The notes under the pieces are model-generated. The model saw nothing but the letters and a program-made list of their open reading frames with translations, ran no database searches and had not been told where the DNA came from. From the NCBI GenBank assembly GCA_900299145.1, contig OMIN01000108.1:1-52259 (forward strand): 52,259 nucleotides of DNA, written 5' to 3'. The first letter of the stretch is position 1. Every line of letters starts with the position of its first letter. Of the stretch, positions 11,936 to 16,406 are shown piece after piece. Origin of the DNA: Betaproteobacteria bacterium. Lineage in GTDB: Bacteria > Pseudomonadota > Gammaproteobacteria > Burkholderiales > SG8-41. The translations under genes and the position numbers were made by a program.

Positions 11936-11963
11936 TAAGTATATGTTTTTATTGAGTATTTTA
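11936..11963 (+). repeat. Dispersed AT-rich motif, copy 6 (covers gpsA stop codon)
   Basis: TAAGTATATGTTTTTATT plus GAGTATTTTA; its right end coincides with the gpsA stop codon, and its left end is 12 nt before the thioesterase start. Confidence 0.85.
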
Positions 11964-12962
11964 TAATTCGGCTTTTGCATCGCGTGCCAGCAGTTCACGC
12001 GCCACGGCCGCCGCCGAACCGGGTGCATCGAGCACGCGGCACACGGCCTCGGTGATCGGCATGTCGATGCCGCGTTGGCGGGCGATGAGCGCAACTTCAC
12101 GCGCACTGTAGACACCTTCGGCCACGTGGCCGAGTTCGGCGAGGATGGCATCCAGCGTCTTGCCTGCTGCGTCCTTCGCGCTTTCCGCCAGCATCAGCCC
12201 CACACGGCGGTTACGCGACAGGTTGCCGGTGCAGGTGAGTATCAAATCGCCTACGCCGGCGAGCCCCATGAAGGTTTCCGCACGCCCGCCGAGCGCCACG
12301 CCCAGCCGCGTGATTTCCGCGAGGCCGCGTGTCATCAACGCGGCGCGTGCGTTCAAGCCAAGGCCGAGGCCATCGCAAATGCCGGTGGCAATCGCCATCA
12401 CGTTTTTCACCGCACCCGCAACTTCCACGCCCACCACGTCGCTGCTGGAATACACGCGCAGCGAACCGCCGTGCAGCTCACGCGCGGTGGCGGCGGCAAA
12501 CACAGCGTCAGCCGAAGCGAGGGTCAGCGCCGTCGGCTGGCCGCGCGCGACTTCCTCGGCGAAGCTGGGGCCTGAAAGCACGCCGCAAGTCGCTTGCGGC
12601 AATTCAGCAGCGCAGATTTGATGCGGCAGCAAGGCCTGTTCGCGCTCGAACCCCTTGCACAACCACACCACGGGTGCGTTGCTGTGCGCGGCATTCAACT
12701 GCTGCAAGGTCGCACGCAAGCCCGCCGTGGTCATTGCGGCCAGCACCAGCGACACATTGTTCAGTGCCAGCGGCAAATCCGCGGTGACCTTGACGCTGGC
12801 GGGTATGACGATATCCGCAAGATAACGCTGATTGACACGCTGCGCATTCAGCGCCGCGGCTTGCCCGGGATCACGCGCCCATAGCGACACCGCGTGGCGC
12901 GCAGCCAGATGCACGGCCATGGCGGTGCCCCAGGCGCCCGCTCCGAGCACGGCGATGTTCAT
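11961..12962 (-). CDS. gpsA: Glycerol-3-phosphate dehydrogenase [NAD(P)+]
   Basis: GpsA reduces dihydroxyacetone phosphate to sn-glycerol 3-phosphate, the backbone for phospholipids. The 333-residue protein opens with the dinucleotide motif [12 protein letters not shown], and carries [13 protein letters not shown] and [20 protein letters not shown] with the catalytic lysine, then [14 protein letters not shown]. Length and start are standard. Order rhodanese-grx-secB-SH3-gpsA on this strand is the usual betaproteobacterial arrangement, with the SH3 gene as an addition. The final codons and stop lie at dispersed motif copy 6. Confidence 0.96.
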
Positions 12963-13474: not shown

Positions 13475-13993
13475 TCAGTTAACCTTCGCTGGCGCAGCTC
13501 CGGCCTGCGCCTGAGCCGCGCGCTGCTGCGCCGCCTGCTGGAACACCTGGTTGAAATCCATGTGGTGCAACACCACTGGCGGAAATCCCGCGCGGCCGAT
13601 GGTGCTTGACACCGCCTCGCGCGCGTAGGGCAACAAATTGGTCGGGCACAGAATGCCGAGCACGGCGTCGAGATCCTGCGGCGGCAGATTGCGGATGTGA
13701 AACAAGCCCGCCTGTGCCACTTCAACCAGAAACACCGTGTGATCCTTCGCCTTGGCGGTAACGGTGATGGTGAGCACCACTTCGTAGAGCGCACCCTGCT
13801 CGACGACATTGGCGCCGGTGTGCACGTTCACTTCCACCTGCGGCTGTTCGTTCTGCAAAAAAATCTTCGGCGCGGCGGGCACTTCGAGCGACATGTCCTT
13901 CACGTAGATTTTTTCGATGCTGAAAATCGGCTGCGTCATGTCAGCCGGATTCTGTGCATTGGGCGCATTTGGCGCGGGGGCTTGTTGGCTCAT
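13475..13993 (-). CDS. secB: Protein-export chaperone SecB
   Basis: SecB holds preproteins unfolded in the cytoplasm and hands them to SecA. The 172-residue protein contains the family signatures FSIEKIYVKDMSLEVPAAP at the N-terminus, the AGLFHIRNLP and CPTNLLPYAREAVS segments and a C-terminal glutamine/alanine-rich tail. It lies between the glutaredoxin gene upstream and the SH3 gene downstream. Start at the ATG at 13993 gives a normal length with the usual short acidic/proline-rich leader. Identification is secure. Confidence 0.96.
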   Translation of the reverse strand: MSQQAPAPNAPNAQNPADMTQPIFSIEKIYVKDMSLEVPAAPKIFLQNEQPQVEVNVHTGANVVEQGALYEVVLTITVTAKAKDHTVFLVEVAQAGLFHIRNLPPQDLDAVLGILCPTNLLPYAREAVSSTIGRAGFPPVVLHHMDFNQVFQQAAQQRAAQAQAGAAPAKVN

Positions 13994-14026: not shown

Positions 14027-14284
14027 TTACTTTGCCAGCAGCGGATCGAGTCCGCCCGCGCGATCAAGCGCGGAAAGATCATCGTAGCCGCCAACGTGCG
14101 TGTCGCCGATGTAAATCTGCGGCACGGTGCGCCGCCCGGTTTTTTCCATCATTTCAGCACGGCGCGCGGGATCTTTATCGATCATGATTTTTTCGATTTC
14201 CTTCACGCCCTTGCTTGCCAGTAACCGCTCCGCGGTTACACAGTAGGGTCAAACTGCGGTGCTGTACATTACGACTTTGGCCAT
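14027..14284 (-). CDS. grxC: Glutaredoxin 3 with in-frame TGA at the active-site cysteine: probable selenoprotein
   Basis: Read from the ATG at 14284 to TAA at 14027, the frame encodes 85 residues, the usual GrxC length. It starts MAKVVMYSTAV, then an in-frame TGA (14249-14251, codon 12), then PYC and a complete glutaredoxin: ERLLASKGV, GRRTVPQIYIGDTHVGGYDDL and a normal C-terminus. The TGA falls exactly on the first cysteine of CPYC, giving UPYC if read as selenocysteine. No other stop or shift occurs. A hairpin fitting a bacterial SECIS lies at 14221-14239. Gene order rhodanese-grx-secB is normal. Alternatives are a TGC/TGT to TGA mutation or a sequencing error, but then the hairpin position would be coincidence. 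Selenoprotein glutaredoxins are known as a class; selA, selB, selC and selD are not in this window. Confidence 0.78.
14221..14239 (-). promoter_or_regulatory. Candidate bacterial SECIS hairpin in grxC
   Basis: In the mRNA, GTAACCGC pairs perfectly with GCGGTTAC around a GGA loop. The stem begins 9 nt after the TGA and the loop 17 nt after it. As I recall the bacterial SECIS rules (loop 16-37 nt from UGA, loop 3-14 nt, stem 4-16 bp, G among the first two loop bases), all are met. The stem uses GTA and TTA codons, which are unusual in this GC-rich region, suggesting selection on the RNA. No T-run follows, so it is not a terminator. Confidence 0.72.
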
Positions 14285-14306
14285 GATCGTCCTTGTGGGT
14301 ATTATT

Positions 14307-14334
14307 TAAGCATTTGATTTAATTAACTATTTTT
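14307..14334 (+). repeat. Dispersed AT-rich motif, copy 7 (covers rhodanese stop codon)
   Basis: TAAGCATTTGATTTAATT plus AACTATTTTT; the TAG stop of the rhodanese gene lies inside it and the grxC start is 23 nt away. Confidence 0.82.
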
Positions 14335-14770
14335 CCAGCGGCATGCCCGCCTGCGACCACGCGCTGATACCGCCGCGCAATGCCACCACATCGGCGAAGC
14401 CCTGCTTTTTCAACGTCTCGACCGCAGCCGACGCACGGCGCCCCATGGCGCAACTGACAATCACCGGCTTTGACTTGAATTTTTCCAGCTCCTTCACGCG
14501 CTCGGCCAGCTGCTTTTCAGGAATGTGGCGCGCGCTGTTGATGTGGCCGCTGTTGAATTCGCCCTCGTCGCGCACGTCGATCACCACCGCGTCCTTGCGG
14601 TTGATCAGTGTTACCGCGTCCATCGGGCCGACTTCCGCGCCGGGACGCATGCCGCGCGAAAACAGCGGAAACAGCAGCATGCCGCCGGAGGTGATCGCCA
14701 GCCCGAACAACACCATGTTGAGCGGGCTTTTCTGAATGTAGGTAAAAAAACTGGCTATTGACGCATCCAT
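14327..14770 (-). CDS. Membrane-anchored rhodanese-like protein (YibN type)
   Basis: A 147-residue protein with one N-terminal membrane helix (about residues 19-37) followed by a single rhodanese domain: DAVVIDVRDEGEFNSGHI, then the active-site loop VSCAMGRRAS with C107, ending ALRGGISAWSQAGMPLEK. The intact cysteine suggests sulfur (or possibly selenium) transfer or a redox role. A GTG at 14788 is an alternative start, but the ATG at 14770 has a better-spaced GGAAG. It is first in the rhodanese-grxC-secB transcript and divergent from gpmI. Its link with a selenoprotein glutaredoxin is suggestive only, since this gene order is common without selenium. Confidence 0.88.
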   Translation of the reverse strand: MDASIASFFTYIQKSPLNMVLFGLAITSGGMLLFPLFSRGMRPGAEVGPMDAVTLINRKDAVVIDVRDEGEFNSGHINSARHIPEKQLAERVKELEKFKSKPVIVSCAMGRRASAAVETLKKQGFADVVALRGGISAWSQAGMPLEK

Positions 14771-14870
14771 AATGCTTCCGAAGCGCACTCCTGATTTGGG
14801 CTAGAATTATACCGTATGCGCATGCCGCAAAAAAACCTTTGTAAAACATGAACCTGGCGTAAAAACTTCC

Positions 14871-16406
14871 GTGAAAATCACTCCCGTTTTATTGATTATT
14901 CTCGACGGCTTCGGCCACCGCGAGGAATGCGACCACAACGCCATTTGCCAAGCGCGCAAGCCGCACTGGAATTTTTTGTGGGGTAAGTACGCGCACACCG
15001 TTATCGACGCTTCGGAAAAAATGGTGGGCCTGCCCACGGGGCAGATGGGCAATTCCGAAGTCGGCCACATGAACATCGGCGCCGGCCGCGTGGTGTATCA
15101 GGATTACACGAAAATTGAACATGCGATTGAAACCGGCGAATTTCGCAGAAACCCGGTGATGGTGAAGGCGATTGAGGTGGGCAAAACCAACGCGCTGCAT
15201 GTGCTGGGCCTGCTGTCGCCCGGCGGCGTGCACAGCCACGAGTCGCAAATCCTTGAACTGGTGGACATGGCTGCGAAAGCGGGCGTGAAAAATCTTTACG
15301 TGCATGCGTTTCTGGATGGCCGCGATACGCCCCCGAAAAGCGCCGCGCCATCATTGACGGCGTTGCAAAACAAGCTGGATGCGCTGGGTTGTGGCCGCAT
15401 TGCCTCCGTTACGGGCCGCTATTACGCCATGGATCGCGACAAGCGCTGGGAACGCGTGCAGCCTGCTTACGATGTCATCACGCAGGGCAAGTCGGAGTTC
15501 TGGGCAGCCAGCGCTGCCGATGCGTACGCGCTGGCCGACGTGCGCAACGAGACCGATGAATTCGTCAAACCCACCGCCATCGTGCCACCCGGCAGCAAGC
15601 CGGTGCGCATGAACGATGGCGATGCGGTGGTATTCATGAATTTCCGCGCCGACCGCGCGCGGCAACTGACCAATGCGCTGACCGATGCCGCGTTCAAGGG
15701 CTTTACCCGCGAGCATGCGCCCAGGCTCGGCTACTACTGCACGCTCACGACTTACGGTGAGGATTTCGCGCACATTCCTGCCGCCTACCCGCCACAGAAT
15801 ATCAACAACGGCTTTGGCGAATATCTCGCTGCGCGCGGGCTGAAGCAGTTGCGCATTGCCGAAACCGAGAAGTACGCACACGTGACTTACTTCTTCAACG
15901 GCGGCGTCGAAACCCCGTACGCGGGCGAAGAGCGCGTGATGGTGCCCTCACCGAAAGTCGCCACTTACGATCTGCAGCCGGAGATGAGTGCGCGTGAGGT
16001 CACCGACAAACTCGTCGCCGCGATCCAAAGCAAAAAATTCGACGCCATCGTCTGCAACTACGCCAACGGCGACATGGTGGGCCACACCGGTGATCTCTCC
16101 GCCGCCACGCGCGCGATTGAAACGCTGGATGGCTGCATCGGCCGCGCGGTCGAGGCCATGCAGGCCGTTGGCGGCGAAGTGTTGATTACCGCCGATCATG
16201 GCAATGCCGAAACCATGCTCGACACCGCAGCCAATCAGCCGCACACCGCACATACGTTGAATCTGGTGCCGCTGCTCTACATCGGCCGCAAGGCCAAAGC
16301 CGCAAACGGCGGCGCGCTGCAGGATGTCGCGCCGACGCTGCTTAAAATGATGGGTTTACCCCAACCAGCGGAAATGACCGGCAAGCCGCTGCTGGAATTT
16401 TTGTAA
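14871..16406 (+). CDS. gpmI: 2,3-bisphosphoglycerate-independent phosphoglycerate mutase
   Basis: GpmI interconverts 3- and 2-phosphoglycerate using manganese and a phosphoserine intermediate. The 511-residue protein has the metal-binding ILDGFG near residue 10, the nucleophile S62 in TGQMGNSEVGHMNIGAGR, and the C-terminal metal motifs ADHGNAET and QPHTAHT. It starts at a GTG 100 nt from the divergent rhodanese gene. The first codons (VLLIILD) are AT-rich and contain a TTTTATTGATTATT run resembling the dispersed motif but needing a gap, so it is not counted. envC follows 26 nt downstream in the same direction. Confidence 0.96.
   Translation: MKITPVLLIILDGFGHREECDHNAICQARKPHWNFLWGKYAHTVIDASEKMVGLPTGQMGNSEVGHMNIGAGRVVYQDYTKIEHAIETGEFRRNPVMVKAIEVGKTNALHVLGLLSPGGVHSHESQILELVDMAAKAGVKNLYVHAFLDGRDTPPKSAAPSLTALQNKLDALGCGRIASVTGRYYAMDRDKRWERVQPAYDVITQGKSEFWAASAADAYALADVRNETDEFVKPTAIVPPGSKPVRMNDGDAVVFMNFRADRARQLTNALTDAAFKGFTREHAPRLGYYCTLTTYGEDFAHIPAAYPPQNINNGFGEYLAARGLKQLRIAETEKYAHVTYFFNGGVETPYAGEERVMVPSPKVATYDLQPEMSAREVTDKLVAAIQSKKFDAIVCNYANGDMVGHTGDLSAATRAIETLDGCIGRAVEAMQAVGGEVLITADHGNAETMLDTAANQPHTAHTLNLVPLLYIGRKAKAANGGALQDVAPTLLKMMGLPQPAEMTGKPLLEFL

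Follow-up and report, generated by a model that had tools for sequence, protein, structure and literature searches.

Glutaredoxins use a nucleophilic cysteine, and a glutaredoxin gene with a stop codon at exactly that position raises the question of whether the gene is dead, the base is wrong, or UGA is read as selenocysteine (Sec). In the window, meaning the whole 52,259-nucleotide stretch analysed here, the minus-strand translation of grxC is MAKVVMYSTAV*PYCVTAERLLASKGVKEIEKIMIDKDPARRAEMMEKTGRRTVPQIYIGDTHVGGYDDLSALDRAGGLDPLLAK*, where asterisks mark stop codons, and its one internal stop is TGA (Table 1). An earlier note, made from the sequence alone, had described a TGA at codon 12 of an otherwise intact 85-codon grxC; the window sequence agrees, with no other lesion in the frame. 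When codon 12 is read as Cys, the product scores 115.4 bits against the “glutaredoxin 3” model TIGR02181 (cut-off 90), while a second glutaredoxin 3 model, NF007923, gives 100.8 bits, below its cut-off of 129. With codon 12 translated, the domain model PF00462 matches at 74.7 bits (cut-off 22.9).

The best match among solved structures is E. coli glutaredoxin 3 (GrxC; PDB 1fov, also 3grx), with 1fov aligned over residues 3-83 at an E-value of 2.1e-24. The two proteins have in common the CPYC position and the TVPQ and GGYDDL motifs, but the nucleophile is Cys in E. coli glutaredoxin 3 and a predicted Sec in the grxC product. We take U/C-P-Y-C to be the glutaredoxin active site and TVP the cis-proline motif. 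The UXX-star glutaredoxin-like selenoproteins, related by name, give weak HMM matches to the same region, all below cut-off (NF041212, 32.9 of 66 bits; NF041114, 22.9 of 72; NF047338, 26.6 of 97), and the grxC product is a glutaredoxin 3.

Table 1. Coordinates of grxC, its predicted recoding elements and neighbouring genes in the window, and of two glutaredoxin fusion genes elsewhere in the source genome (G000).
Feature	Position	Strand	Evidence or remark
grxC, U-P-Y-C glutaredoxin 3	14027..14284	minus	85 codons plus TAA stop
Predicted Sec codon TGA (codon 12), at the position of the CPYC nucleophilic cysteine	14249..14251	minus	
Resolving cysteine of U-P-Y-C, TGT (codon 15)	14240..14242	minus	Cys in 14/14 Sec genes
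Predicted bacterial SECIS hairpin	14216..14242	minus	folds, synonymous freeze at codons 16-23, pair counts
Shine-Dalgarno-like AAGGA, 5 nt 5' of ATG	14290..14294	minus	by eye
Rhodanese-domain protein gene, upstream of grxC	14327..14788	minus	start codon uncertain
secB, downstream of grxC	13475..13993	minus	TIGR00809, 155.9 bits (cut-off 102.8)
gpsA, glycerol-3-phosphate dehydrogenase	11961..12962	minus	NF000940, 454.1 bits (cut-off 202)
gpmI, divergent neighbour	14871..16406	plus	TIGR01307, 703.7 bits (cut-off 330.65)
Glutaredoxin-DinB-like fusion L004	L004:1453-2223 (G000:C158)	plus	LQPG*SSCLRAKEFL
Glutaredoxin-DinB-like fusion L005	L005:928-1704 (G000:C60)	minus	TQPG*SSCLRTKEFL

One possible explanation is that grxC is a nonsense pseudogene, or that the TGA is a sequencing or assembly error, leaving a dead gene or a wrong base. 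Pseudogenes often carry just one in-frame stop, and the assemblies are drafts. However, codon 12 is TGA in 14 genomes from two genera, namely 13 of the 14 members of genus g1 (G000-G008 and G010-G013) and G018 of g6, a sister genus in the same family; since the same codon is TGA in all of them, it is neither a chance event nor a base error. Both the active site *PYC and the TVPQIYIGD motif are present in 14/14 Sec genes.

A glutaredoxin match was found in 144 of 149 relatives (among the matches listed). Among 80 loci of named records, the best of 273 confirmed, the codon could be tabulated for 79 (that of L116 was not read): 53 have TGC, 18 TGT and 8 TGA. All eight TGA loci belong to g1, in records with the prefixes CAM-/CAN-, CADECM, DHVE, VGIF and JAKFYK. 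A further 16 Cys-type loci have TGC or TGT, and the family members read outside g1 and G018 are Cys forms. The state of this codon in relatives had been singled out for checking in the earlier note: close relatives retain TGA and more distant ones have TGC or TGT. Three MAG records (L054, L055 and L063) are titled “Bordetella parapertussis”; grxC of the first two groups with g1 and that of the third with the same family, and these organism names look wrong.

A wider scan used one exact back-translated pattern, TGA-P-[YF]-C-x-x-A-[EK]-x-L. It matched 14 of 74 family genomes (the 13 of g1 and G018), 5 of 399 order genomes (four of g1 and G329) and 3 of 398 phylum genomes (the source genome itself, G543 and G802), and the reversed control pattern matched one genome in the order set, one in the phylum set and none in the family set. 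We rejected the matches in G329, G543 and G802 (L134, L178 and L177, respectively), which have no glutaredoxin frame around them. The pattern is narrow, missing two other glutaredoxin genes of the source genome described below (L004 and L005), and the order and the phylum are each represented by a sample of genomes; the scan therefore does not establish that Sec glutaredoxin is absent elsewhere.

Purifying selection acts on the codons that follow the TGA, with a dN/dS over codons 13-84 of 0.089 for 13 Sec genes, compared with 0.097 for 12 Cys orthologues from genus g7. Neither a dead tail nor translation ending after 11 residues would give a dN/dS of ~0.09. As for a restart of translation, the first in-frame ATG after the UGA is codon 34 in the window gene and codon 45 in the others, with a GTG at codon 27 in most, and a product begun there would therefore lose the active site. 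With this constraint, a frame free of other lesions, the recurrence of the TGA and the frozen silent sites described next, we regard a pseudogene or base error as extremely unlikely.

A bacterial SECIS element is a stem-loop directly after the UGA with a small apical loop that contains G (as described in PMC1088965), and the grxC transcript has a predicted hairpin of this form. The hairpin, GUAACCGC-GGA-GCGGUUAC, begins 9 nt after the UGA. Its core stem, GUAACCGC/GCGGUUAC, pairs 14239-14232 with 14228-14221 and has a 3-bp lower extension, and the apical loop GGA (14231-14229), which begins 17 nt after the UGA, is invariant in 14 sequences.

We compared silent variation across this segment in Sec and Cys genes. 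In the 13 g1 Sec genes, synonymous differences occur in 0.08 of comparable pairs at codons 16-23 versus 0.34 outside codons 13-23, making codons 16-23 the lowest 8-codon synonymous window of the gene. At codons 18-20 (GCG GAG CGG) there are 0/234 synonymous differences; the three silent third bases supply the leading G of the loop and two Gs of the stem, which gives this freeze a structural reason. The Cys orthologues, the 12 g7 sequences that remained among the collected loci after L053 was left out for a one-codon deletion, give 0.37 at codons 16-23 versus 0.39 elsewhere, and 0.46 at codons 18-20. When G018 is added to the Sec set, codons 16-23 become the second lowest window (0.128), the lowest starting at codon 17 (0.121), and codons 18-20 still have 0/273 synonymous differences. 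A permutation that drew 7 codons, where the Sec set had 8 informative ones, gave P values of 0.002 for the Sec set, 0.005 with G018 and 0.41 for the Cys set. The silent sites of the predicted hairpin are frozen in Sec genes and free to vary in Cys orthologues, as would be expected of a bacterial SECIS element.

Folding and covariation say less. For the GGA-topped hairpin to be the fold of 8/8 distinct 30-nt stretches, folding has to begin 6 nt past the UGA; the minimum energy fold of 44 nt is a different one in 4 of the 6 Sec genes folded, pairing bases beside the UGA. The bases that form this competing fold would be hidden under a ribosome pausing at the UGA. The stability of the fold is unremarkable relative to shuffled sequences (z from -0.50 to -1.99 in six Sec genes). 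Of the eight pairs, five are invariant and one shows changes in both partners, a result matched by 295 of 500 shuffles; pairing at columns 16-28 is lost in 5 of 10 distinct sequences. Taken alone, covariation and folding energy are weak evidence for a SECIS element; synonymous constraint is the better test.

The machinery for Sec decoding is encoded in the source genome, a 5.5-Mb assembly of 158 contigs that is 99.69% complete. Contig C110 carries a tRNA-Sec (74.5 bits against a gathering threshold of 47; called tRNA-SeC by ARAGORN, with anticodon tca, that is UCA) together with selA (568.6 bits) and selB (442.7 bits), and contig C129 carries selD (422.6 bits), which has an in-frame TGA of its own. 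The full set that the earlier note proposed to search for is thus present in the same genome as grxC. The selD TGA lies near the start of the gene (L142; G000:C129:8959-9888), and this selD is probably itself a selenoprotein gene. Between selB and selC lies a gene for a thioredoxin-reductase-like flavoprotein (L141:7450-8361, plus strand, G000:C110), which scores 231.4 bits against TIGR01292, below the cut-off of 343.45, and may belong to the Sec operon.

Sec decoding is far wider than Sec glutaredoxin in this family, since selB was matched in 67 of 74 family genomes (at E 1e-60). At the same threshold selB is found in 13 of 14 g1 genomes, the exception being G013, and selA is present in the four of the 13 other g1 genomes that were tested and in G018. 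In G013 a selB start adjoins selA, and the gene contains unknown bases and breaks off at the contig end (L147; G013:C101:1-2700); the missing match is therefore probably a matter of assembly.

Reading of the UGA by a near-cognate tRNA (e.g. Trp), or leaky read-through, would give a glutaredoxin without Sec, and UGA is in general the leakiest stop codon. Against this, UGA stands in the very place of the redox cysteine, the genome encodes the Sec machinery, and constraint on the SECIS-like hairpin is seen in the UGA genes but is missing from the Cys set tested. Of 35 long window ORFs that do not overlap one another (picked on length and not curated as genes), 15 end in TGA, bearing out the earlier note, which had held that TGA is a normal stop elsewhere in the window. 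We consider such misreading very unlikely.

Given the gene, its conserved UGA, the Sec machinery, the purifying selection after the UGA and the frozen hairpin, all of which are computed results, we are highly confident that the grxC product is a functional glutaredoxin 3 in selenoprotein form, with Sec decoding and catalysis assigned by analogy. The earlier proposal that this gene makes a UxxC Sec glutaredoxin is supported by the sel genes, the conservation of the codon and the constraint on the hairpin.

We then propose a model for the synthesis and action of this protein, whose Sec insertion, SelB binding and catalytic cycle we infer from known selenoproteins and glutaredoxins. The ribosome would pause at the UGA of codon 12, and SelB carrying Sec-tRNA-Sec would bind the downstream hairpin with its GGA loop. 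Sec would then be inserted to form the U-P-Y-C active site. As the nucleophile, the Sec12 selenolate would attack either a disulfide in a protein or a mixed disulfide with glutathione; the selenenylsulfide would be resolved by Cys15 or by glutathione, which would also regenerate the enzyme. The usual reductant of glutaredoxin can be made, because a glutathione synthetase is found in G000.

PF00462 has six matches in G000, including grxC. Among them, the protein on contig C44 is a monothiol glutaredoxin of the Grx4 type (TIGR00365, 154.7 bits; cut-off 117.1), L003, with a CGYC motif and a hydrophobic stretch at its N terminus, scores 25.2 of 90 bits on the glutaredoxin 3 model, and L006 is an SspA/glutathione-transferase-like protein. 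The last two, L004 and L005, are the fusions of Table 1, whose matches both end early at a TGA. A second, cysteine-type grxC, which the earlier note had suggested looking for, was not found in the draft assembly of G000. Because no Cys-type GrxC was found, the UGA gene would be the GrxC of this organism, and its level would be tied to selenium supply.

The order rhodanese-grxC-secB is common to the Sec and Cys forms, with matches to all three genes together in 22/22 loci. A gpsA match accompanies them in 21/22, the exception being G011 with little sequence past secB, and gpmI is matched in 21/22 (partially in four), with no match in G134. Rhodanese-type models all score below cut-off on the upstream gene product (e.g. 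GlpE, 61.2 of 102 bits). Since grxC stands directly before secB in a conserved order, the UGA could be a selenium switch first and part of an enzyme second: at low selenium, translation would stop after 11 codons, and termination at codon 12 could be polar, mainly altering secB-gpsA expression, so that inserting Sec would count chiefly as a signal. However, the strong purifying selection on the glutaredoxin codons after the UGA indicates that the protein itself is needed, and the grxC-secB spacing varies between genomes. An attenuator was sought by an Rfam search of the window, which gave no gathering-level match. A role chiefly as a switch therefore seems very improbable to us.

We next consider the origin of the Sec form. 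One member of g1, G009, has a TGT-type GrxC between the rhodanese gene and secB (L139:2970-3227); it retains selA and selB, and its grxC is without the hairpin fold. In a tree of concatenated gpsA, secB, rhodanese and gpmI (1194 columns, 22 genomes), G018 and g1 form one clade with support 100, and the Cys-type G009 falls on a long branch between G018 and the 13 Sec genomes, with supports of 76 and 86. On this tree, one gain of Sec with reversion in G009 costs the same as two gains. A position of G009 outside the Sec clade is not rejected by an AU test (p 0.122), and with G009 placed there one gain of Sec is enough. The Cys-type GrxC of G009 is a candidate Sec-to-Cys reversion.

The two glutaredoxin-DinB-like fusions of G000 (Table 1) also have a TGA, exactly at the first cysteine of CxxC, and when read through the proteins are 50% identical and match PF00462 at 41.8 bits (L004) and 41.1 bits (L005). 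The DinB-like part falls just below the PF12867 cut-off in L004 and well below it in L005. In both genes a 7-bp hairpin with a GUU loop follows the TGA. Of 13 plasmid homologues, the four that were fetched all have Cys at the TGA position, with TGT or TGC in the three codons read. L004 and L005 are probable selenoproteins of a kind that we did not find listed, and the term “DinB” is absent from the searched text of two reviews of selenoprotein families. A Sec glutaredoxin-DinB fusion may be less expected than a Sec GrxC. In G000, three glutaredoxin domains thus seem to contain Sec.

Divergent from selA on contig C110 lies a 620-residue frame with one TGA, in the context “...VISGIGA*GACTPAV...” (L141:1995-3857, minus strand). 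Two UGSC family models match it: PF24696 on the part after the TGA (38.8 bits; cut-off 25) and NF041046 at 54.1 bits, below its cut-off of 125. A stem-loop follows the TGA. This is probably another selenoprotein gene, and the pairing of a TGA with a stem-loop in such further candidates of G000 speaks for the Sec reading of grxC.

Sec glutaredoxins as such are known, as the earlier note had said: those with PF00462 and UxxC are a recognised selenoprotein family (PMC13188914, PMC1794560, PMC1088965). Hosts named in the consulted portions of the literature are Geobacter sulfurreducens, Alkaliphilus metalliredigens, Moorella thermoacetica and Clostridium oremlandii (Grx1), and 10 Sec sequences in COG0695 come from the Sargasso Sea (PMC13188914, PMC1794560, PMC1088965, PMC4479559). 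The C. oremlandii protein is an experimental model, in which the mutant U13C/C16S marks its Sec and Cys (PMC4479559), and a 2026 review states that Sec increases the catalytic efficiency of such enzymes (PMC13188914). The grxC product shares with these proteins the fold family, Sec as the first residue of UxxC and a hairpin right after the UGA within the coding sequence. Compared by description, the named hosts are Deltaproteobacteria and Clostridia in those portions, whereas the present gene is a betaproteobacterial GrxC orthologue in the order rhodanese-grxC-secB-gpsA. For Betaproteobacteria, the tabulated results of a 2006 survey give one selenoprotein family with 10 proteins (PMC1794560, Table 2), and FdhA is described there as the only selenoprotein of the group (PMC1794560). 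No Sec GrxC in Betaproteobacteria was found in the literature searched, and within that literature the lineage and the genus-wide fixation of Sec GrxC are new.

It is tempting to speculate further that Sec-GrxC is more than a faster thiol-disulfide reductase and has a natural glutathione peroxidase-like activity, as reported for engineered selenoglutaredoxins (PMC10298544), that it belongs with L004 and L005 to a wider selenium glutaredoxin system, and that G009 is a natural reversion. We hold this combined scenario to be rather doubtful; if true, the hairpin-free Cys form of G009 would be a natural experiment on the reasons for retaining Sec.

A standard annotation pipeline would likely shorten or omit such a gene, so that the organism would appear grxC-negative. 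Together, our results add to the few selenium glutaredoxins known a predicted Sec form of a housekeeping gene, from a further lineage, an uncultured betaproteobacterial genus. The presence of Sec GrxC in all but one of the 14 g1 genomes, set against Cys orthologues in close relatives that also carry selB, offers a clean natural comparison that turns on one catalytic residue.
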